A DNA stretch of 31,458 nt from a virus, in IMG/VR virus record IMGVR_UViG_3300036832_000358, positions 1 to 31,458 of that record. One strand, written 5' to 3'. The notes under the pieces were generated by a model, which was given only the letters and a program-made list of their open reading frames with translations, did no database searches and had not been told where the DNA came from. A program made the translations under genes and the position numbers. Position 1 is the first letter of the stretch. The number at the start of each line of letters is the position of its first letter. Below are positions 2,336 through 28,763 of the stretch, piece after piece.

Positions 2336-2493
2336 TCACGGCACCCGACGAGCACGACTGGCTCCAGGTCACCGCGCCCAACGGCGACCGCGGCTACCAG
2401 TGCCAACGCTGCCGCCTCACCGCCATCTCCCTCCCGGTGCCGCCGGAATGTCGCTGCTGCCCGCTACCAGGCTGGTCAACCGATGCCGCTTGA
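2332..2493 (+). CDS. 53-residue cysteine-rich, zinc-ribbon-like protein
   Basis: The short frame starts at the ATG overlapping the previous stop and ends inside the next gene's start region. It has five cysteines in a knuckle-like arrangement: CQRC at residues 24-27 and CRCC at 40-43, flanked by TAISLPVPPE. This spacing (CX2C, 12 residues, CXCC) could form a small zinc ribbon. Tight ATGA coupling on its left and a short overlap on its right argue that it is translated. The function is unknown; small phage zinc-ribbon proteins often contact DNA or RNA polymerase, which is only a suggestion here. Confidence 0.55.
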   Translation: MITAPDEHDWLQVTAPNGDRGYQCQRCRLTAISLPVPPECRCCPLPGWSTDAA

Positions 2494-3076
2494 CGCACAA
2501 CCCGCCATGCGGTTAGTTCGTCGCAGAACGGCCACATCTCGCCATGAGCGAAATGACGCGCCGTGCTGCGGCAATGCACCGTGGTGCGTCGTCCAAACCC
2601 ACAGCCAAGCCGAGCGCTGGGCCAATGCCAATCTACGTCGCGCCGGTTATGTCACATACCTCCCGCTCGCCGTCGTCCGCCGCCGCGATAACGCTATCCG
2701 CTCGCTCTGGCATCGCGTTGAGGTTCCACTCTTCCCATCCTACCTGTTTCTGCAACATGCCAACCGCGACCTCTGGCGACCCATCCGCGAACTCCCAGGC
2801 GTCCTCGCCGTCCTCCGAACCGGCGATCGCATCCACCATGTCCGTGCGGGCGTTCTGGAGGCCGTACAGGCCGCCGAGGCTTCGGCCGCTACCCAACCAC
2901 CAAGATGCCGCTCCTGGGCGCCTGGCACCCCTTGCAGCCTCCGCACGGGGCCACTCACAGGACACCCCGCCGTGGTCCTCGCCACACACCGCGATACTGC
3001 TACCCTCGGGGTCATGATCTTCGGCGCTCTGCGGCAAGTCCAGGCACCCATCGCGTGGCTCGTGGAACGCAGTTAG
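2483..3076 (+). CDS. NusG/RfaH-like transcription elongation or antitermination protein
   Basis: The protein has 197 residues. Residues 33-130 match the NusG N-terminal (NGN) domain pattern: WCVVQTHSQAERWANANLRR, then VPLFPSYLFLQ (residues 81-91) and the GVLAVLRTGDRIHHV segment. Residues ~145-190 look like a KOW-type domain (GTPCSLRTGPLTGHPAVVL). NusG homologues bind the RNA polymerase clamp and prevent pausing or termination. This gene lies just before the packaging and late genes, the place where lambdoid phages put their late antiterminator Q, so a late-gene role is inferred. The start is uncertain: ATG 2483 or ATG 2507, neither with a strong ribosome site. The first ~30 residues are outside the usual domain. 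Confidence 0.8.
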   Translation: MPLDAQPAMRLVRRRTATSRHERNDAPCCGNAPWCVVQTHSQAERWANANLRRAGYVTYLPLAVVRRRDNAIRSLWHRVEVPLFPSYLFLQHANRDLWRPIRELPGVLAVLRTGDRIHHVRAGVLEAVQAAEASAATQPPRCRSWAPGTPCSLRTGPLTGHPAVVLATHRDTATLGVMIFGALRQVQAPIAWLVERS

Positions 3077-3790: not shown

Positions 3791-5108
3791 GCGCGATCGA
3801 GTCACGCTGCCGTTCAGCCCACGCCCATGGCAGCGACCGCTGATCGACGATCCCGCCAAGCGCATTGTCGCCGTGGTCCACCGCCGCGCCGGCAAATCCA
3901 CCGGCCTCATGTGGCGCGGCATCAAACGTGCCATCACCGAGCCCAAGCCGCAGCCGCGCGTCGTCCATCTGCTGCCCTACAACGTCATGTGGAAGCGCAC
4001 CGGCCTCTGGGATCAGGTGGCACGCGCCGCAGAGGCCATCCCGGACACCGTCGTCATGCGCTCCGAACTCGTGGTGCGGTTTCCCAACGGCGGCGTCTAT
4101 CAATGCGGCGGCGCCGACAACCCCGACGCCTGGCGAGGCGGATACGCAGATGAGCTGATCGCCGACGAGTTCGACGACATGCCGCCCGGCCTCGTGCCGC
4201 TGGTCATCGAGCCGATGCTGGCCGACCGCGGCGGCACGCTCGTGCGCTCCGGCACGCCCAAGGGCAAAGGGCTGTTGCAGGAGGCATTCGATCGCGCCAA
4301 GACCACGCCAGGCTATTCGACGTATCTGCTCGACCACACCAAGACCTGCGCGCTGCCGGACGAGGCGATCGAGACGCTGCGACGCGAGATGAGCGCCGAG
4401 GAGTTCGCCCAGGAACTCGAATGCTCGTTCAACGCACCCAACAGCGGCAGCTACTACGGCGCGCTGATGAACGACGTCGAGTTGCAGGGACGCATCGGCG
4501 AGGTTGCCTACGATCCGTCACTCGCGGTGTGGACCGCGTGGGATTTAGGCATCGACGATGCCACGGCTATCTGGTGCTGCCAGATCACGGTCGGCGGCGA
4601 GTTCCGCTTTGTCGACTACATCGAGGACAGCGGCGCGGCGCTGGATCACTACGTTGGGCTGCTACAGGAGCGGCCGTATCACTACTCGATGCACCTGCTG
4701 CCACACGATGCTGCGGTGAAGGAGCTCGGCAGCGGACGGTCACGCACCGAGACGCTGGGCAGCCTCGGCTTGTTTCCGTATCGCGTGCTGCGGGCGCACA
4801 GCGTCGCCGATGGCATCAACGCGGTGCGGCTGGTGCTGCCGCGCGCCTGGTTCGATGCGGAGAAGTGCGCCAAGGGTATCAAGGCGTTGCGCAACTATCG
4901 CCGGGAATGGAATCCGGCCGGCGAGACCTGGCGCGTCAATCCACGGCATGACTGGTCGTCACATGGCGCCGATGCGATGCGGTATCTGTGCCTTGGTGCG
5001 CGTGACACGATCGCACCGCCGGCGCCGGAGCGGGTTAGGGACAGCTGGGACATCGCTTTCCAGCGTGCCGCACAGGCCGAGGAGCCACGAGGCTGGAGAA
5101 TCGCCTAG
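3723..5108 (+). CDS. terL: Terminase large subunit (ATPase and nuclease)
   Basis: The protein has 461 residues. The ATPase domain has a Walker A at residues 51-60 (VVHRRAGKST) and a Walker B at 144-150 (ELIADEF), followed by the coupling-motif region VRSGTPKGKG. The RNase-H-like nuclease domain begins TAWDLGIDDATAI near residue 271 (first acidic residue Asp274), continues LLPHDAAVKELGSGRS, and ends HDWSSHGADAMRYL with a final metal-binding Asp417. It cuts and translocates DNA through the portal into the prohead. The start at 3723 has AAAGG upstream and overlaps the small subunit. The length is normal for P22-like large terminases, and no key residue looks missing. Confidence 0.95.
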   Translation: MLTLTPLSTQDRPRRSGKTTHARRDRVTLPFSPRPWQRPLIDDPAKRIVAVVHRRAGKSTGLMWRGIKRAITEPKPQPRVVHLLPYNVMWKRTGLWDQVARAAEAIPDTVVMRSELVVRFPNGGVYQCGGADNPDAWRGGYADELIADEFDDMPPGLVPLVIEPMLADRGGTLVRSGTPKGKGLLQEAFDRAKTTPGYSTYLLDHTKTCALPDEAIETLRREMSAEEFAQELECSFNAPNSGSYYGALMNDVELQGRIGEVAYDPSLAVWTAWDLGIDDATAIWCCQITVGGEFRFVDYIEDSGAALDHYVGLLQERPYHYSMHLLPHDAAVKELGSGRSRTETLGSLGLFPYRVLRAHSVADGINAVRLVLPRAWFDAEKCAKGIKALRNYRREWNPAGETWRVNPRHDWSSHGADAMRYLCLGARDTIAPPAPERVRDSWDIAFQRAAQAEEPRGWRIA

Positions 5109-9716: not shown

Positions 9717-10619
9717 ATGGCAGACAATCCAGCACTGGACTCGTTCCTGGCGACAGGAGCGCAGGAGGGGGCCGCGCAGCTCGCGCAGGAGCCTGTACAG
9801 GCGCCTGAGCCGGCCGCCGCGCCCGAACCACAGCACGACGCCCAGAAGCCGTCAGAGGCCAAGCCAGAGGGGCCTGCGGCCAAGGAACCGGAGCCTGAGC
9901 CGGAGGACGAGGCGCTCCAGCACGTCCAGGGCGGCGACAACCGCACCGTGCCGTTCTCCGCGCTGGAAAAGGTGCGCAACGACTGGAAGTCCAAGGCCGC
10001 CGCCGAGAAGGCCCGCGCCGATCTCGCCCTGAAGCAACTCGAGGAATTCCAGCAGCGGCAGCAGGCGCCCGCACCGCAGCCCCAGCCGCCGCCGCAGTTC
10101 CAGCTGCCGCCGATGCCCGATCCGCAGACCGACCTCTACGGCTATCTGCGCTATCAGGAGGTGATGACGGAGCGGAAAATGCTCAACGAACGGCTGAACG
10201 TCAGCGAGGCGTTCATTACCGACAAGATCGGCGAGGACAAGCTGCGCGAGTATGTCGCGGAGTTCAAGCAACACGCCGACAAAGATCAGGCACTGTGGGG
10301 CAAGCTCTACAACCAGCCGAACCCTTACGGGTGGATGATCCGTGAGATGGATCGGCAGCGCCAGCACGCCGAGATCGGCGACGATCCGGCGGCGTTCCGG
10401 TCGCGCCTTGAGGCCGAACTGCGCGCCAAGTGGGAAGCCGAGATGCTGCAACCGCAGCCGGGCAACGGTGGTGCGCGTCCATCGCCGGTCGCCGGTATGG
10501 CGCCATCGCTCGCCAACGCGCGCAGCGTCGCAGGACGTTCGCAGCCGACCTTCACCGGGCCGCCTAGCTTCGACGACATCCTGCGCCGGCCTGACCGCCG
10601 CAACGGCGCGCGAAACTAG
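9717..10619 (+). CDS. Scaffold-like protein
   Basis: The start at ATG 9717 has GAGG five bases upstream; a longer frame from 9627 overlaps the previous gene and lacks support. The 300-residue product is highly charged: an Ala/Pro/Glu-rich disordered N-terminus (AKEPEPEPEDE), a coiled-coil stretch (KAAAEKARADLALKQLEEFQ), a Pro/Gln linker, a helical middle (KLREYVAEFKQHADKDQALW), and a basic C-terminal tail ending DILRRPDRRNGARN. A basic helical C-terminus that binds coat protein is known for P22 gp8. Its position between portal and coat and its overall composition support scaffolding. Confidence 0.75.
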   Translation: MADNPALDSFLATGAQEGAAQLAQEPVQAPEPAAAPEPQHDAQKPSEAKPEGPAAKEPEPEPEDEALQHVQGGDNRTVPFSALEKVRNDWKSKAAAEKARADLALKQLEEFQQRQQAPAPQPQPPPQFQLPPMPDPQTDLYGYLRYQEVMTERKMLNERLNVSEAFITDKIGEDKLREYVAEFKQHADKDQALWGKLYNQPNPYGWMIREMDRQRQHAEIGDDPAAFRSRLEAELRAKWEAEMLQPQPGNGGARPSPVAGMAPSLANARSVAGRSQPTFTGPPSFDDILRRPDRRNGARN

Positions 10620-11927: not shown

Positions 11928-12476
11928 ATGAAGGCAATTCTGTTTGCCGGCGCAGCACTGTTATTCGCTGGGCCTGCACTCGCGCTGCCACAGATCGGCG
12001 CGGGCGATACACTGAACGTCGTCGGCAATGCGACGTTCAATGGCGTCAATGTCACGTTCTCGCCAACCGCCAATCTGGTGACCGGCACGGGCGCCTATAC
12101 CACGCTCGGCACCTGTGTCGGCTGCGTCACCGTGAACACGCCGCTGGAGTATTCGCCGTTCACGAACATTAGCAACCTGTTCGTGGCGATGAACAACGGG
12201 ATGACAGCGACGGTATCGCTGACCAGCCAGGTTGATCCGCCGTCGCTGGTGGGAAACGACCTCAGCCTGAACGACACCGCGCTGCTGACGCTGACCGGCT
12301 TCGCGCCCACAGCCGGTCTACTTGAATTGACCGTCAACCAGGCGACCGGCGTTGCCTCCGGCTCGTTCAGCAGCACGGTGCAGGGCACAGCGGCGCCCGA
12401 GCCGCTCTCGCTCGCCATCCTCGGTGTCGGGATGCTTGGCATCGCGCTGGTGAAGCGCCCTGCACGTCGATCCTGA
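11928..12476 (+). CDS. Secreted PEP-CTERM surface protein in the head gene cluster
   Basis: The 182-residue protein has a clear signal peptide (MKAILFAGAALLFAGPALA, cleavage predicted after residue 19) and a classical C-terminal sorting signal. The signal starts PEP at residues 157-159, continues with a hydrophobic helix LSLAILGVGMLGIALV, and ends in the basic tail KRPARRS. In bacteria this tripartite tail is recognised by exosortase (EpsH/XrtA type) and is linked to exopolysaccharide-producing envelopes. The mature part is Thr/Ser/Asn-rich, beta-like, with one CVGC pair. GAGGAGTCACCC before the ATG is a strong ribosome site. The gene lies 15 bases after the coat stop, so it is likely expressed late. 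The role is unknown: virion decoration, or a moron altering the host surface. Confidence 0.8.
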   Translation: MKAILFAGAALLFAGPALALPQIGAGDTLNVVGNATFNGVNVTFSPTANLVTGTGAYTTLGTCVGCVTVNTPLEYSPFTNISNLFVAMNNGMTATVSLTSQVDPPSLVGNDLSLNDTALLTLTGFAPTAGLLELTVNQATGVASGSFSSTVQGTAAPEPLSLAILGVGMLGIALVKRPARRS

Positions 12477-14699: not shown

Positions 14700-16046
14700 A
14701 TGGCCGGTCTCCCGCCTAATCCGTCCGTCGGCGACATCGTCATCACCGACAGCGGCGCGGCGTATCAGTGGGACGGCGAGAAGTGGACCGCGAACAGCGC
14801 GCCGCAGACGCACCCGTATTTGCCGCTCTCCGGCGGTGAATTGACCGGGGCGCTCATCATCACAGCAGCGGCGCGCAGCGGTGGGACGTCCGGGCTGCAG
14901 GTGCAGGGTCCAGCCGAGATCGATGGCCCGCTGACGCTGACGGTGCCGCCAGCCAATGCCTCCGATGCGGTGGACAAGGAATATGTGGACGATGCCGTTG
15001 CCGGGGTGGCATCCCAGCCGGGACCGGTAGGTCCGCAAGGACCAGCGGGACCAACCGGCGCCACGGGACCACAGGGGCCGGCCGGTGCGACTGGATCGGC
15101 AGGTCCCCCCGGGGCCGCCTCCACGGTGCCAGGACCTGCCGGGCCGCAAGGCCCAAAGGGTGATCCCGGAGCGACCGGTGCCACCGGACCACAAGGAGCC
15201 ACCGGCACGACTGGAGTCGCTGGACCACAAGGTCCGAAGGGCGACACCGGAACAACTGGAGCGCAAGGCCCAGCCGGTCCTACTGGGTCACAGGGAGCGA
15301 CTGGCGCGCAGGGCACGACGGGGCCGCAGGGTGCAACAGGCGCGATCGGACCGCCGGCCGGGCGCAACCGGCTGCAAAATGCGGGGTTTCGCATCAATCA
15401 GCGAGCCTATACCAGTGGCACCGCGCGTGCTGCCGCTGCCTATGCGCACGATCGTTGGAAGGCCGGCGGCGGCGGCTGCACCTATACGTTCACCCAAACC
15501 TATCCCACGACCACCATCACGATCACCGCCGGCACGTTGCAGCAGATCGTCGAGTCGCTGGAAGTCGAGGGTGGCAGCTACATGCTGTCATGGACCGGCA
15601 CGGCTCAAGGGCGGGTGAACGCCGGCACATATGCTGCCAGTCCGGTATCCGTCACGGGACTGGCTGCGAATACCGCAATCACCGTCGAGTTCAACACTGG
15701 AACGCTTGCCACGGTACAGTTGGAGTCTGGTACGGTTGCCACGGCATTCGAGCGTCGGCCGATGCAGCAGGAACTTGCTTTGTGCCAGCGGTTTTATCAG
15801 ACATCGGTGGTTTACGGTGCTGGATACGCTGGCGCGGCGGGCGCCTATGCGACATTGACGGTCGGTCTGCCGGTTTCAATGCGCGCCAACCCGACGTTGG
15901 CAGTCATTAACAATTCCGGAATGAGCAATATCGCTTCGCCGTCCTTCGTCACGCTCGCAACCAACGTTATAGGATATGGCAACGCAGCGACGACGACTGG
16001 TAATTGGGTGATAAGTTGCACCTTCTCGGCATCGGCTGACCTCTGA
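14700..16046 (+). CDS. Collagen-like tail fibre with beta C-terminal domain
   Basis: The protein has 448 residues. The N-terminal part has [20 protein letters not shown] and a fibre repeat ([25 protein letters not shown]). Residues 108-219 are Gly-X-Y repeats: 11 triplets, a 4-residue break (STVP), then 25 triplets, with GPKGDP/GPKGDT units typical of bacterial collagen-like shafts. The C-terminal part begins [15 protein letters not shown] and [13 protein letters not shown], a pattern seen in many carbohydrate-binding fibre tips, followed by beta-rich sequence. Trimerisation through the collagen helix and host-surface recognition are inferred. Confidence 0.8.
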
Positions 16047-18798: not shown

Positions 18799-19467
18799 CT
18801 AGCGGATGGCGTGGAAGATGCCGCGGTTGGCATGCACCGGATTGACCGTATGCCGGACGGTGCCGAAACCCAGGTCGTACAGCATCGCCGTAACGCACGC
18901 CACATTCGGCCCCCACCAGTTCGTCGGATCGCCCGCGCACTCTGCTTCGGGATAAAAGATCATCGCCGGCCGCTCGATGTCCATCGCGTCCAGGTAGGTC
19001 TCCACGATCAGCGTCGAGCCGACCAGCGGGGCAATGCGCTCGAGCACGTGGAACGGATGGCGCAGATGATAGAACACGCCGAGAAACAGCACGATGCCCC
19101 ATCGCCCGACTTTCTCCAGCGTCAGCTCGGCGACGTCGATGTCCATCGCCTCGATCTCCGGTGCCAGGCGCGCGCGGGCCAGATCGAAGGCGCGGCGGTC
19201 GCCCCAGCCGGCATCCGACCAGGTGAAGTGGTCGGTCCCCAGCACGCGCGATGCTCCGCGCCGGTATGCCTCGATCGAATTGAAGCCGTCCCAGCAGCCG
19301 ATATCCAGCACCGATCGCCCGCGCGGATCGGCGATCGAGAAATACGCCGCCGCCTGAGCCTGAAGGTCGGCCAGCAGGCCTTTACCCGGGGAAACGCAGC
19401 CGTTGCCGAAGTCTATCGAGTGAAACCAGGGCAATTTGGCGATCTGATCAATAAGGGTCTCTGACAT
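18799..19467 (-). CDS. Class I SAM-dependent methyltransferase (CmoB/DUF1698-like)
   Basis: The protein has 222 residues, read on the reverse strand, with GGAGG six bases before the ATG. SAM-binding motif I is clear at residues 53-61 (VLDIGCWDG), preceded by PWFHSIDFGNGCVSPGKG, which recalls the CmoB family (W-x-HSIDLGNG-x-TPG). VLGTDHFTWSDAGW, FLGVFYHLRHPFHVLERIAP and LIVETYLDAMDIERPAMIFY follow. CmoB acts on tRNA, but many DUF1698-type relatives sit in glycan gene clusters, so the substrate is open. The opposite-strand position inside an appendage block marks it as an accessory (moron) gene with its own promoter, which must lie inside the tailspike gene. Confidence 0.8.
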   Translation of the reverse strand: MSETLIDQIAKLPWFHSIDFGNGCVSPGKGLLADLQAQAAAYFSIADPRGRSVLDIGCWDGFNSIEAYRRGASRVLGTDHFTWSDAGWGDRRAFDLARARLAPEIEAMDIDVAELTLEKVGRWGIVLFLGVFYHLRHPFHVLERIAPLVGSTLIVETYLDAMDIERPAMIFYPEAECAGDPTNWWGPNVACVTAMLYDLGFGTVRHTVNPVHANRGIFHAIR

Positions 19468-23373: not shown

Positions 23374-24069
23374 ATGCCACAGGCAGTAATCGGGCCAATC
23401 CTCGGCGGCGTCGCCTCGGCCGGGATCGGCGCGATCGGCAGCGCGATATCCGGTAACAAGGCCGGAGCCGGTGCCGCGCAGGCGCAGCAGGCGTTGCAGC
23501 AGCAGCGCGCCGACCTGGCGCCGTGGCGCACCACCGGTGGGCAGGCGCTTGGAGCCAGCGCCGATTTGCTGGGGTTGAACGGACCGGATGCAGCAGCTGC
23601 GGCGATGGGGAACTTCCAGACCTCGCCGGGCTATCAGTGGTCGATGGACCAGGGCACCCGCGCAGTCGACGCAGGCGCGGCGGCGCGGGGCATGCTGCGA
23701 TCGGGCGCCGAGATAAAGGCGCAGCAGACGTTCGGCACAGGCCTCGCGGATCAGGAGTTCCAGCAATATTACAAGAATCTGACGGGCCTCTCGACCCTTG
23801 GAGAGAACGCAGCTGCCGGCGGCGCCACGACGGCGCAAACTGCTGGGAGCCTGGCGCAGGGCGCCGGCAACACGCAGGGCTCGATCTACGGCAATCAGTT
23901 CGGCGCGCTTGGCTCGACGGTCAACGGGCTGTTCCAAAACCCGGCGGTGAATAACTGGCTGATCGGCGGCGGTGGTGGCGCGCCGAATTATATGGCCGGT
24001 ACAACCAACCTGGCGGGGACATCGCCCGGATATGGCGATCAGCTATTTAATCCAGGGGGCGTCTTCTGA
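23374..24069 (+). CDS. DNA-ejection (transfer) protein, P22 gp7 position
   Basis: The ATG at 23374 has GGAG eight bases upstream; a longer frame from 23335 overlaps the previous gene. The 231-residue protein starts with a Gly/Ala-rich hydrophobic helix (PILGGVASAGIGAIGSAISG), then a Gln-rich coiled segment, then a highly typical block: SPGYQWSMDQGTRAVDAGAA, ARGMLRSGAEIKAQQTFGTG and LADQEFQQYYKNLTGLSTLG. This block is common in phage DNA-transfer proteins. A Gly/Asn-rich tail follows. It is likely packed inside the head and injected to help form the channel across the envelope. Confidence 0.8.
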   Translation: MPQAVIGPILGGVASAGIGAIGSAISGNKAGAGAAQAQQALQQQRADLAPWRTTGGQALGASADLLGLNGPDAAAAAMGNFQTSPGYQWSMDQGTRAVDAGAAARGMLRSGAEIKAQQTFGTGLADQEFQQYYKNLTGLSTLGENAAAGGATTAQTAGSLAQGAGNTQGSIYGNQFGALGSTVNGLFQNPAVNNWLIGGGGGAPNYMAGTTNLAGTSPGYGDQLFNPGGVF

Positions 24070-26303
24070 TGTCCGGTTACGCCAACATCTCGGCGGTTCC
24101 TGATCAGAACATCCTGTTCAATGCCGCGTCGGGTATGACGACCTCGCAGGTTCAGCGCAACCAGCTGCTGAACCAGGAGGCGCAGCAGACCATCGGCGCC
24201 AACGAGATCGGCATGATGGCGCGCGCGGCCAGCTCGATACTTCAGTTGCCGGAGGATCAGCAGGCGGCGGCGTATCCGCAGGCGGTGGCCGAGCTGCAAC
24301 GGCAGGGCTTCGCAAAGAACGCGCCGAGCATCTATCCCGGCGCGGATACGCTGCGGCGCGTGCAGGCGATGGGCCTGACGCTGCCCGAGCAATACCAGTA
24401 TGGCGTCGTCACCGCGCCGGGGCTCCAAGGGCAGATCGATGCGATCCTGGGGAAGGGCGCGACACCGCCGACAGGCACGACGCCGGGCGCCGGTGCTAGC
24501 GGCGGCGGTGGAACCAGTGAGTTCAACTACGGCAATATCCGCCCGGTCGGCGGGACTGGCTTCAACACTTACGCCACTCCGCAGGACGGCATCGCCGCCA
24601 TGTCGTCCAATCTTGCGGCCTACGCGAACCAGCACGGCATCAACACGCTGAACGGCCTGACCGCGCGGTGGGCGCCGAAGGGCGATGGCGCCAACGATCC
24701 GGTTGCCTATGCGAAGCGGCTCGGTGCCGCGCTCGGCATTGACCCGGACGCGGAGATCAACCTGGCGGACCCGCTGCTACAGACGCGCCTCATCCCGGCC
24801 ATGGCGGCGGTCGAGAAAGGACGGCCATTCGATCAACCTTCCGACGTGCTCACGGCCGGCATCCAGAAGGGCCTCGGCAGGGGCGGGACGACCGTGGCCG
24901 TAGCAGGCCCAGGAGGCGGCGTGGTGGCGCGGAACCCCGGGTCGGTGCAGGTGGCAGGGCCAGGGGCGCCACCGGCCTCCACAGCGCCAGCAACGGCCAC
25001 GCCAGACTTGGTCGGCCCGCGACCGTTGCCGGCAATGACCGCGAACGCTCCTGTCGTCACGCCCGAGAGCCTCGCCAATACGCCAGTGCCTGCCGCCCCA
25101 CCGCCTGCGCGACCGAATCAGGTGCTGCCGGGATCGCCGAACGGACCACCAGCGCCCGCGGTTTCAGCCGCGGCACAGCCTGGGTCACGAGGCAACCTGC
25201 CGAGCGCAGCCAGCCTGCCGAGCGGCGTCAACTCGCAGCAATACCAGCAAGCCGTGGACCTACAGCGGAAGGCGCTCGCCCTCGATGCGTTGGTCGATCC
25301 GACCGGCCGCGCCAAGGTGCTCGCCGCCGGGCTGCGTCAGCAGGCGCAACTCCTGCTCCAGACTGACAGCGTGGTACAGACTCAGGAGGGCCAGTTCCAT
25401 CCGCTCTCCGGCAAGATCGACGAGGCAGCTAAGCCCCTGGCGGATTACCACGAGACAACCCCCGGTTCCGGCATCTGGGTAGGCGGTCCCGGCACCGAGC
25501 CGCGCTTCCAACCACCAGGGCGTCTGATCATCGATAAGGCAGGGGATGTCTGGCGGACAACTTCAGGAGGGGCGGAGAAACTCAGTCGCCTTGATCCCAC
25601 TGCGGTTGCTGCGCTGAACGAAGCTGAGGCCGCCGGCACCGCTACCGGCAAAGCTGTTGCGCAACAGTTGCCAGATATAATGGCTCAGGCACGCGATGCG
25701 GCGGCACAAGAAGGCCAGATCGATTATGCCAGCAACCAACTGCGAGAAGCAGCGAAGGGTGGTATTCCCTCGGGGTACTTCTCTCAGGGCTTAGCCACCG
25801 CTGCCGCCGCCGCTAAGTCCCTCGGCATTGATACCTCATCGCTCGGAGTCAATCCCGAAGCGGTTGGCAATGCTCAGACCGCACAGAAAACCCTATCGGT
25901 AATCGGGGGCGCCATTCTACGGCAGGCCCTCGGGCCGGGAAGCGCGATCACCGACGCTAAGGTCGAGCAATTCATTCACACGCAGCCCGGCATCGAGACC
26001 GACCCGCAAGCACTTCAACGCATCATGGGCTGGGCGCGGTCGCAATACACCTATACACGCGAACTAGGCCAAGCTGCGGTGACGGAAGCTGCGAAGCCAG
26101 AAAACGCTGGGCGGCTGCCGCCGCACTGGCTGGCCGCATACTACCGCGATCATGGATTTGCGCCGATCTATGATCCCGGTACGCAGGAGATGCGGCAGCC
26201 GGACGGGGCACAGCCGGCCCGTGTGACGCCGGCGTCACAGCCAGCTACTACAGCGCCATCTCGGGTGATCCAGTATGACGCGAACGGAAAGCGGATCAAG
26301 TGA
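24069..26303 (+). CDS. Internal virion / ejection protein with lysozyme-like segment
   Basis: The protein has 744 residues; its ATG overlaps the previous stop. The N-terminal ~130 residues are helical with NAASGMTTSQVQRNQLLNQE and LPEDQQAAAYPQAVAELQRQ. Residues ~152-255 (FNYGNIRPVGGTGFNTYATP, QDGIAAMSSNLAAYANQHGI, NGLTARWAPKGDGANDPVAY) match the segment often named structural protein P5, a peptidoglycan-directed domain that would open a passage in the cell wall. A Pro/Ala linker (residues ~275-385) and a helical C-terminal half follow. In P22 order it stands for gp20 or gp16. No catalytic Glu can be named with confidence. Confidence 0.8.
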   Translation: MSGYANISAVPDQNILFNAASGMTTSQVQRNQLLNQEAQQTIGANEIGMMARAASSILQLPEDQQAAAYPQAVAELQRQGFAKNAPSIYPGADTLRRVQAMGLTLPEQYQYGVVTAPGLQGQIDAILGKGATPPTGTTPGAGASGGGGTSEFNYGNIRPVGGTGFNTYATPQDGIAAMSSNLAAYANQHGINTLNGLTARWAPKGDGANDPVAYAKRLGAALGIDPDAEINLADPLLQTRLIPAMAAVEKGRPFDQPSDVLTAGIQKGLGRGGTTVAVAGPGGGVVARNPGSVQVAGPGAPPASTAPATATPDLVGPRPLPAMTANAPVVTPESLANTPVPAAPPPARPNQVLPGSPNGPPAPAVSAAAQPGSRGNLPSAASLPSGVNSQQYQQAVDLQRKALALDALVDPTGRAKVLAAGLRQQAQLLLQTDSVVQTQEGQFHPLSGKIDEAAKPLADYHETTPGSGIWVGGPGTEPRFQPPGRLIIDKAGDVWRTTSGGAEKLSRLDPTAVAALNEAEAAGTATGKAVAQQLPDIMAQARDAAAQEGQIDYASNQLREAAKGGIPSGYFSQGLATAAAAAKSLGIDTSSLGVNPEAVGNAQTAQKTLSVIGGAILRQALGPGSAITDAKVEQFIHTQPGIETDPQALQRIMGWARSQYTYTRELGQAAVTEAAKPENAGRLPPHWLAAYYRDHGFAPIYDPGTQEMRQPDGAQPARVTPASQPATTAPSRVIQYDANGKRIK

Positions 26304-26811
26304 CAACAGATAGCTGCGGGGCGGCCCTCTGAGCGTCCTCACGGGCCTTCCCGGTCAGGCAGGTCCCGATTGTCGGGTTCATGAACCACCGTACTTCACG
26401 ACCTTCTTGGTGACGGATCAGGGCGCCGACAGCAGCCAACTCGTTCATCGCGGATGAAACGGCCTGGAGGGTCGCTCCCGCCGCTTCCGCAAGTTGCTGG
26501 CGTGTGGCCACAATTTCTCCGGTATCCATACGCATCCGACAGAAGAACTCGGCCCATAGCTCACCGGAGATGCGCGGGCGCTTCGCGTGAGCATTGATCC
26601 AACGGACCACGATGCGGTTCTGATCCGGCGACAGCATGACGAAGCTCCACCCTTTCGATGCGGCGGTGTGCCGGTCAATGTATGCGACGATCTGCCCAGC
26701 CGCCATGTCCGGCAGGCCGGGGAACTCCAGCACCATCTGCCGGAGCGCCGCGCCCTGATCGAGTCGTAGGGCCTCTCTGCGGCTGACAAACCGGCTGATC
26801 TTGGCTGTCAT
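26296..26811 (-). CDS. Plasmid-type replication initiator-like winged-helix protein
   Basis: The protein has 171 residues; ATG 26811 is chosen over an upstream GTG. The pattern recalls RepL-like or plasmid Rep proteins of Alphaproteobacteria: KGWSFVMLSPDQNRIVVRWI, then ELWAEFFCRMRMDTGEIVAT, a helix-turn-helix (RQQLAEAAGATLQAVSSAMN, ELAAVGALIRHQEG) and the closing RWFMNPTIGTCLTGKAREDA, QRAAPQLSVV. A wing with a FxNP turn is typical of these initiators. It stands alone on the reverse strand between two ejection genes, overlaps the neighbour's 3' end by 8 bases, and has direct repeats and DnaA boxes upstream. A transcription regulator is the alternative. Confidence 0.65.
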   Translation of the reverse strand: MTAKISRFVSRREALRLDQGAALRQMVLEFPGLPDMAAGQIVAYIDRHTAASKGWSFVMLSPDQNRIVVRWINAHAKRPRISGELWAEFFCRMRMDTGEIVATRQQLAEAAGATLQAVSSAMNELAAVGALIRHQEGREVRWFMNPTIGTCLTGKAREDAQRAAPQLSVVT

Positions 26812-26832
26812 GTGAGTTGTTTCTCCCGAGTC

Positions 26833-26951
26833 CCACAGGATGATACCCCTCGGTGCCACAGAGTGATACCTCCATAGACGCGCGCGGCCGGGAGACTTTA
26901 GAGAGAAGATACTTCCTTAAATGGTTTCATCTATCCACAGCCTGTGGATAA
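26833..26951 (+). other. Candidate replication origin: iteron-like repeats and DnaA boxes
   Basis: A 15-base direct repeat occurs at 26833-26847 and 26856-26870 (CCACAG-NN-TGATACC, 13 of 15 identical, 23 bases apart). A third, weaker GATACTTCC lies at 26908-26916. Then comes a relatively AT-rich stretch (26893-26931) and a perfect 9-bp inverted repeat with one central base, TATCCACAG-C-CTGTGGATA (26932-26950). It contains a consensus DnaA box TTATCCACA on the reverse strand (26943-26951) and a one-mismatch box CTATCCACA on the forward strand (26931-26939). Repeats plus DnaA boxes beside a Rep-like gene is the layout of plasmid origins. An operator for Rep autoregulation would share the same repeats. 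Confidence 0.6.
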
Positions 26952-26969
26952 GTAAGCAAGGCGCATCGA

Positions 26970-28763
26970 ATGACGATCAACGCACAGCTTCCCGACGGCA
27001 CGACGCTGCAATTCCCGGACGAAACATCGGACGCGACGATCGACGCTGCTGTTACCTCGCATGTGCAGCAGAACACGCCGCAGCATCCTGCGGCCGGACC
27101 GTCCGGCGATTTGACGACGGACATTCCGCGCCGTCTCGCCACGGCAGGGATCGATGCCATCGCCGGGCTTGGCTCAACCCCGCGTGCGATCGCCCAAGGC
27201 GTAGACTGGCTCGGCAGCAAGGTCGGCCTCGATGTCGGCGCCGATCCGGCCTTGGCTAGCTTGAAGCGTTCGACCGGCGAGCAGAGCTTTCCCGACTTCC
27301 AGACGCTGCGTGAGCGCGGCTTTGCCGATACTGGCGCCACCGAATACGTGCCGCAGACGACGCCAGGCAAGATGGTGCAGGCGGGCCTTACCGCCGTGCC
27401 AAGCGTCTTGTTGGGCGGCGGTGTGAGGGCTGCGTTGCCGGCGTTCGCTGGTGGGGCTACTGGGGAACTTGGTTCTGAGCTCTGGCCAGATCATCCGTTC
27501 CTTGGGCGCCTGCTGGGCTTTGTTCTTGGCTCACATACCGCCGCTGCGGTCGGCAATGCTGCATCGAGGACGGTTGCCAATGCCACCGGCATCGGTGGCC
27601 CGACCACGCCAATCGGGCAGGCATATCAGCGTCAGGGCATCACGCCCACGACCTCGGTCGATGATGCGACAAACGCCTGGCAGACCGCTGCCGAGACTGC
27701 CGCGCAAAAGCTCGGGCCTGGTGCGACGCAGCAAGAAACCGGGGCCGCATTGCAGGGTGCGGTCAATCAATGGAAGTCCGACTGGCAGGCCAACGCCAAT
27801 ACCAAGTGGGACGCTTTTCGCACTCAGGTGCCGTCGGATACGCAGATCCCGGTATCTGGGTTTCAGAAGGCGTTGACCGGTGTGAACCAGGACTATGGCG
27901 GCGCCGCGAATCTGGCAAAGACACTGCAACCGTCGCTTGGAACAACGATACAAGATGCACTGACCAAGGACATATCGCCGACTGGCACACTGCCTTGGCA
28001 AGCGGTGCAGGCCACGCGTACCCGGCTCGGGCAACTCATGCAGAGCAGCGATCCTGACGTTGCGACCGTTGCAAAGCGGCTCTACGGCGGCTTGTCCGAC
28101 GATATGCAGAACGGCGCGTTGGCTGCGGGCTCCAACGCGGCGCAGGCGTTCAAGGAAGCTAGCGATTATACCTGGGCCGGGCACCGGCTGCTGGACGATC
28201 ACCTCAACCCGATCCTGCGCGCGTCCACGCCCGAGCAAGCGGCGCAGTATGCGCTAGCCACAGCACGGCAAGGAGGGACGCGGCTCCAGGCGATCGGTGT
28301 CGCCGCTCCCGACCAGCCGACCGCCCTGGGCGCTGGCATCGTTCGCCAGGCGGCGGACGTTGGGCCGGACATGCTGGCGAAGCGAATGAACGCGCTATCG
28401 CCAGAAGCCCGGACGCAGCTGTTCGGTGGTCCTGGTGTTGGCACGCCGGCTGGAGACCTTGGCGATCTGGTGGACATCGCCGCGAAGCAGCGGCAGATCC
28501 AGCAGACCGCAACACCCCCGCGCTTCTCAAGCGATGCGGGGCGTTTTGTCACTGCGATGGAAGCGGGGCGGGCGGGCCATGAAATTGCCGGAACGCCCGG
28601 CCGCATTGCGGGCCTCGCTGCTGGCTATCTTGCAGCACCCGCGCTGCCGTACCTTGAGCGACAGGTTGCGGCCAATCGGCTGATGTCGGGTGTCTACGGG
28701 CCGCGCGTGACGCCGTTCCAGGCGGCCCCAGTATGGAATGCGCTGATACAGCCTACCCGTTAG
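26970..28763 (+). CDS. Internal virion / ejection protein, gp16 position
   Basis: The protein has 597 residues. It starts with a short domain typical of large phage internal proteins (MTINAQLPDGTTLQFPDETS, DATIDAAVTSHVQQ), then an amphipathic and Gly/Ala-rich part (ALPAFAGGATGELGSELWPD, LLGFVLGSHTAAAVGNAAS) that could insert in membranes, followed by long helices (WQTAAETAAQKLGPGATQQE, RLYGGLSDDMQNGALAAGSN). In P22, gp16 is the last ejection protein and this is the last one here. It was probably contiguous with the previous ejection gene before the Rep module came between. The origin region lies just upstream. Confidence 0.7.
   Translation: MTINAQLPDGTTLQFPDETSDATIDAAVTSHVQQNTPQHPAAGPSGDLTTDIPRRLATAGIDAIAGLGSTPRAIAQGVDWLGSKVGLDVGADPALASLKRSTGEQSFPDFQTLRERGFADTGATEYVPQTTPGKMVQAGLTAVPSVLLGGGVRAALPAFAGGATGELGSELWPDHPFLGRLLGFVLGSHTAAAVGNAASRTVANATGIGGPTTPIGQAYQRQGITPTTSVDDATNAWQTAAETAAQKLGPGATQQETGAALQGAVNQWKSDWQANANTKWDAFRTQVPSDTQIPVSGFQKALTGVNQDYGGAANLAKTLQPSLGTTIQDALTKDISPTGTLPWQAVQATRTRLGQLMQSSDPDVATVAKRLYGGLSDDMQNGALAAGSNAAQAFKEASDYTWAGHRLLDDHLNPILRASTPEQAAQYALATARQGGTRLQAIGVAAPDQPTALGAGIVRQAADVGPDMLAKRMNALSPEARTQLFGGPGVGTPAGDLGDLVDIAAKQRQIQQTATPPRFSSDAGRFVTAMEAGRAGHEIAGTPGRIAGLAAGYLAAPALPYLERQVAANRLMSGVYGPRVTPFQAAPVWNALIQPTR

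Follow-up and report, generated by a model that had tools for sequence, protein, structure and literature searches.

A putative captured plasmid replicon inserted between virion genes of a P22-like phage

The closest described systems are found in mycobacteriophages and on small plasmids. In mycobacteriophages of cluster A, repA is oriented opposite to the virion genes, and repA together with 171 bp of upstream DNA replicates (PMC7157519). In the RepA prophages Miko and Rachaly, the cassette follows the virion genes, is linked to parABS and replaces the integration cassette, and no repeats were found in it (PMC7157519). The RepL-type Paracoccus plasmid pMOS6 has a minimal replicon with one Rep; its two 18-bp iteron-like repeats are separated by 3 bp, which gives a period of 21 (PMC3832669). 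The Rep type of pAPA01-060, pAES4 and pMARC2, a MarR-like winged-helix protein, is likewise found on small alphaproteobacterial plasmids; it has no direct repeats (PMC3832669).

The locus described here lies in a viral sequence of 31,458 nt (IMG/VR record IMGVR_UViG_3300036832_000358), referred to below as the window. As in Miko and Rachaly, where repA and a short upstream region suffice (PMC7157519), the rep gene of the window points against the virion genes. The cassette thereby resembles known extrachromosomal prophage replicons, those of mycobacteriophage RepA, but is unusual in lying inside the late virion block; it also differs from them in having twin sites, and no parABS was seen in the linear-fragment contigs searched for ParA. 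Like pMOS6, it encodes a single small Rep; however, the pMOS6 protein is RepL by Pfam, whereas the window Rep falls below the RepL cut-off and its repeats have a spacing of 23. With the pAPA01-060 type it shares a winged helix but not the lack of direct repeats.

The window encodes a P22-type packaging and virion set, namely portal (P22_portal, E 1e-117), major head protein, terminase and DNA ejection genes (PHROG 'DNA ejection', E 3e-27), as a preliminary description of a P22-like virion cluster had proposed. The cassette exactly fills positions 26304-26969 (approx. 670 bp), reversed between two virion genes. Position and weak similarity suggest that both neighbours are ejection genes. The gene at 24069..26303 (+) encodes a putative ejection protein with a lytic-transglycosylase-like region (PHROG 873/2276), and its 3' end is overlapped by the stop codon of the convergent rep gene; the second putative ejection gene, at 26970..28763 (+), begins right after the cassette, and a single-sequence query found no relatives of it in viral contigs. 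Several other genes of the window merit mention. A methyltransferase-like gene at 18799-19467 (-), in the tail-fibre region, likewise interrupts the late block in antisense. The product of a gene beside the coat gene (11928-12476, +) has a signal-like N-terminus and resembles PEP-CTERM proteins at its C-terminus, and a tail protein with collagen-like Gly-Pro repeats (14700-16046, +) matches a PHROG of collagen-like minor tail proteins. Moreover, a NusG/RfaH-type antiterminator gene is found just upstream of the terminase gene in two P22-like phages (window 2483-3076, +; L032 10415-11011).

The open reading frame list gives a reverse-strand frame at 26296-26859, in which conservation among relatives places the rep start at ATG 26811 and not at 26859. 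On the evidence of tblastn, phage relatives and dN/dS, rep (26296..26811, -) encodes a winged-helix initiator-like protein of 171 aa. The reverse-strand, Rep-like winged-helix gene of the preliminary description is thus present; its winged helix matches PF13545 (E 4e-5) and is confidently predicted by AlphaFold2 for residues ~61-150 only. The fold and profile matches are mostly generic winged-helix regulators (Fur, CRP, TFE, MarR), and the Foldseek list also includes the partition proteins AspA/TubR and the initiator 4pt7; because only the winged helix is confident and its matches are generic, the fold comparison is not decisive. No close sequence relative of Rep was found among solved structures. 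Membership of RepL (PF05732) was rejected, as the match of 17.0 bits lies below the gathering cut-off of 20.3; one of eight members of the Rep family matches this profile at all at E 0.1. Identity with the pAPA01-060-type Rep was also rejected, the resemblance being confined to 51 columns of a helix-turn-helix (hhalign probability 12%). Scans for sigma-70 promoters and terminators found nothing.

A tblastn search with Rep matched 17 plasmids, mostly small and alphaproteobacterial. In particular, p1318-9 (3,454 bp; 45% identity over 99% of the query, E 8e-42), pAPA01-050 (3,035 bp; 43% identity, E 3e-34), p5317, pTF4.1 of Acidithiobacillus ferrooxidans (4,104 bp) and pCP157_22 (1,211 bp) encode the same Rep family at 42-45% identity. 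Full-length relatives were found on plasmids of 1.2-5 kb, so the protein does not match only transcription regulators, an outcome that the preliminary description had named as evidence against its reading. Relatives are also encoded on 17 genome contigs, nearly all of 3-5 kb; 12 of these, each of approx. 3-4 kb, carry exact terminal repeats (42-141 bp) typical of circular assemblies. Among 397 Acetobacteraceae genomes searched, 25 contain the family, mostly on contigs of 3-5 kb. The Rep family lives mainly on small plasmids. Moreover, the rep relative is the sole annotated gene of the 1.2-kb plasmid pCP157_22 and, for that reason, would most simply be its replication initiator. In pTF4.1 (L005), rep seems to be frameshifted near its 5' end (678-775), ATG 678 being out of frame with the annotated gene.

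Since rep starts at ATG 26811, the twin repeats upstream of it are non-coding. These putative Rep binding sites, at 26830..26847 (gene-proximal) and 26853..26870 (distal) on the reverse strand, are 18 nt each, 83% identical and spaced by 23, in keeping with the two direct repeats first described; a third, partial copy that had been reported with them was not found on re-examination. At a spacing of 23, 14 of 17 positions match, and none of 300 dinucleotide shuffles equalled the repeat pair (p=0.003). Plasmid and phage loci alike have two near-palindromic sites of ~17 bp upstream of rep, and the highest-scoring spacing is 23 bp in 16 of 19 upstream regions. Matches at this spacing sum to 129 in ten divergent loci, where shuffling gave 90 at most (0/400), and to 49 when only the four phage loci are used, where it gave 42 at most (0/400). 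The sequences of the sites vary from locus to locus (CTCCCACCACATGGGAG, GTCGCTCACTGTGCGAC, GTCACACCAGGCGTGAC and others), while the two copies agree within most loci; the second copy is degenerate in the phage contig L013 and in a Phenylobacterium plasmid, and palindromy is weaker in the phage copies than in the plasmids. The twin repeats are therefore a hallmark of the Rep family in layout, not in sequence, and this conserved layout speaks against the loss of repeats in homologues that had been considered as a possible objection.

The complete origin reads, toward rep, as DnaA box, A+T-rich block, CG tract, two near-palindromes 23 bp apart and start codon. The DnaA box TTATCCACA (26943..26951, -), at about -140 from the rep start, is the only perfect one in the 31-kb window, and each of the four phage copies has a perfect box at -138 to -142. 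A second box with one mismatch, CTATCCACA (26931..26939, +), forms with it a perfect inverted repeat (26932-26950) of 9-bp arms and a 1-nt loop. Both boxes and the palindrome had been noticed at the outset and are present, but the second box is not conserved in relatives. A one-mismatch DnaA box is found in the same upstream zone of p1318-9, pAPA01-050 and pTF4.1, and no DnaA box was found upstream of rep in pCP157_22, pSJF2-f and contig L017. The A+T-rich stretch was likewise recovered: the block at 26895..26930, a putative strand-opening region, resembles the TATATCTAT-type block of relatives, and its GC content falls to 0.48-0.51 from ~0.63. An alternating CG-rich tract, ACGCGCGCGGCC (26878..26889), occupies the same place, ~80 bp before rep, in all phage origins and several plasmid origins (window, L012-L014, L002 and L089, that is, phage and Roseomonas-type origins). 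This anatomy is common to the phage cassettes and their plasmid relatives: among plasmids of the p1318-9/pAPA01-050 type, most have the pair of near-palindromes at 23-bp spacing ahead of the start codon and several have a DnaA-like box 120-150 bp upstream. However, these plasmids are free, whereas in the phages the cassette interrupts a virion block, and the phage Reps form a clade of their own.

No Rep relative was found in 50,697 phage records, and no description of the family in phages was found among open-access papers. In viral contigs, a single-sequence scan found no relative, an alignment scan did, and a second alignment scan added none. Three further contigs (L012, L013 and L014) encode full-length relatives that are 60-63% identical; because four independent contigs carry the cassette, an assembly artefact is unlikely. 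L013 (38.8 kb) has a P22-type coat gene, RecT, a D5-type primase-helicase and a NusG-like gene, and its rep follows the ejection genes on the same strand as the virion genes. In L012 and L014, which encode a portal of the lambda family and an S49 protease (and, in L012, a gpA-type terminase), rep is antisense between the portal and protease genes; in L012, the cassette fills 9846-10517 with the same fit between genes as in the window. In a phylogenetic tree, the four phage Reps form one clade (support 100/100). As this clade spans unrelated backbones, there was apparently one capture from plasmids, followed by spread between unrelated phages. Pairwise dN/dS values of phage rep are 0.12-0.26, with dS high and near saturation in most pairs; the gene is under purifying selection. 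The L013 phage also has PAPS-reductase-like, methylase-like and radical-SAM genes together (L032 384-3294), perhaps for DNA modification.

Related phages lack the cassette at the corresponding sites. In L058, the flanking genes touch at TAATG; the C-terminal part of the upstream gene product is 82% identical to that of the window, and the relative of the 26970..28763 gene starts at this junction. In L043 and L044, the portal and protease genes are adjacent and the cassette is absent. L037 and L014 share a flank that is 92% identical, and the homology ends where rep would begin, a different reading frame being present in L037 instead. Relative to these phages, the cassette is an insertion. A winged-helix-like gene directly after the ejection genes of L058 (16380-17021) was considered as a second plasmid Rep and rejected, as it has neither a plasmid match nor a Pfam match.

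It is reasonably probable that window 26304-26969 is a self-contained plasmid replicon that serves lysogenic plasmid maintenance of the prophage. A Rep dimer would bind each of the twin sites, and bound Rep may repress its own promoter; the two sites could also be just an operator. Together with host DnaA, Rep would open the A+T-rich block and load host replication proteins in a theta-type initiation. Sites that differ between loci while the copies agree within most loci are what co-evolution of Rep and its sites would produce. As the cassette is antisense to the late genes in the window and in two of its three relatives, rep may be expressed independently of them, as is the case for morons. 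The cassette would thus keep the prophage as a plasmid in lysogeny, beside the phage's own lytic replication genes, and this appears to be its most economical role.

Other roles can be proposed for the same features. The cassette might be a moron directed against other elements: resident small plasmids, or rival phages that share its replication type, would be excluded or destabilised through incompatibility, and the cassette would not act as the phage's own origin. Such a role would suit a separate antisense unit at a junction whose content varies (in other phages it is occupied by different small reading frames), a plasmid family common in the likely hosts, and twin sites that differ between loci as incompatibility determinants do. 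However, exclusion by sites alone needs no DnaA box or A+T-rich block, yet these are kept in all four phage copies, and the phage sites match none of the plasmid sites seen; this role is unlikely. It is also decidedly unlikely that the cassette is a selfish mini-replicon hitchhiking in phage genomes, kept by spreading and of little benefit to the phage. One phage clade across two unrelated backbones and a compact unit of ~670 bp with an exact fit between genes are what such an element would leave, but the cassette showed neither a transposase nor ends or target duplications, and purifying selection on rep is compatible with either reading.

An initiator-like protein with an origin could further be the lytic replication initiator of the phage, the more so as no clear lytic initiator is proven in the window. 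The presence or absence of the cassette among close relatives, its late-block position and its antisense direction make this very improbable; moreover, a D5 primase-helicase and RecT are encoded by the L013 phage itself, and the window has a weak replisome-organizer-like gene at 1201-1854. Finally, palindromic twin sites near the start codon resemble operators, and fold and profile matches are mostly to winged-helix regulators; both would fit a transcription factor that controls its own gene from two operators, with coincidental DnaA boxes. This is extremely improbable: the nearest full-length relatives belong to tiny plasmids, in one case as the sole annotated gene, and the position of the perfect DnaA box varies by at most 4 bp across the four phages.

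A captured plasmid replicon is well supported by sequence comparison, and a phage-plasmid lifestyle is likely. The preliminary description had offered either a phage-plasmid or a captured replicon interrupting the virion block. The captured replicon stands, given the plasmid relatives, the family-wide origin anatomy, the empty sites and the three further phage copies; the phage-plasmid is not established, since no ParA (PF13614) was found in the four cassette-bearing contigs, all linear fragments, nor any closed circular record, phage or plasmid, that combines Rep with these virion genes. A partition system is expected for a low-copy prophage plasmid. Tyrosine integrase (PF00589) was not found in the same four incomplete contigs either, and because all are fragments, the two missing genes neither prove nor disprove a plasmid prophage. 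A cassette-free relative is located in a chromosome; thus, episomal life is not general in the lineage. A circular 38-kb Caenibius record with a relative of the P22-like portal has an integrase and no annotated Rep relative. In L115, a cassette-free relative of 41 kb, a divergent repressor/Cro-like gene pair (3839-4560) is a sign that the lineage is temperate.

Recognition of phage-plasmids usually relies on rep and par modules. In the present case, a single short cassette within the late block makes up the entire replicon, and the plasmid relatives of Rep are mostly annotated 'hypothetical protein', so that such phages would escape recognition. It may tentatively be proposed that a replicon cassette of ~670 bp is mobile among unrelated tailed phages, inserts antisense at junctions between late-block genes and alone confers a plasmid state on the prophage, with no linked partition or lysogeny module. 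The cassette offers an example, open to direct testing, of the way in which a phage might turn into a plasmid in one step, and of how Rep/site specificity may drift within a family while the 23-bp geometry remains fixed.
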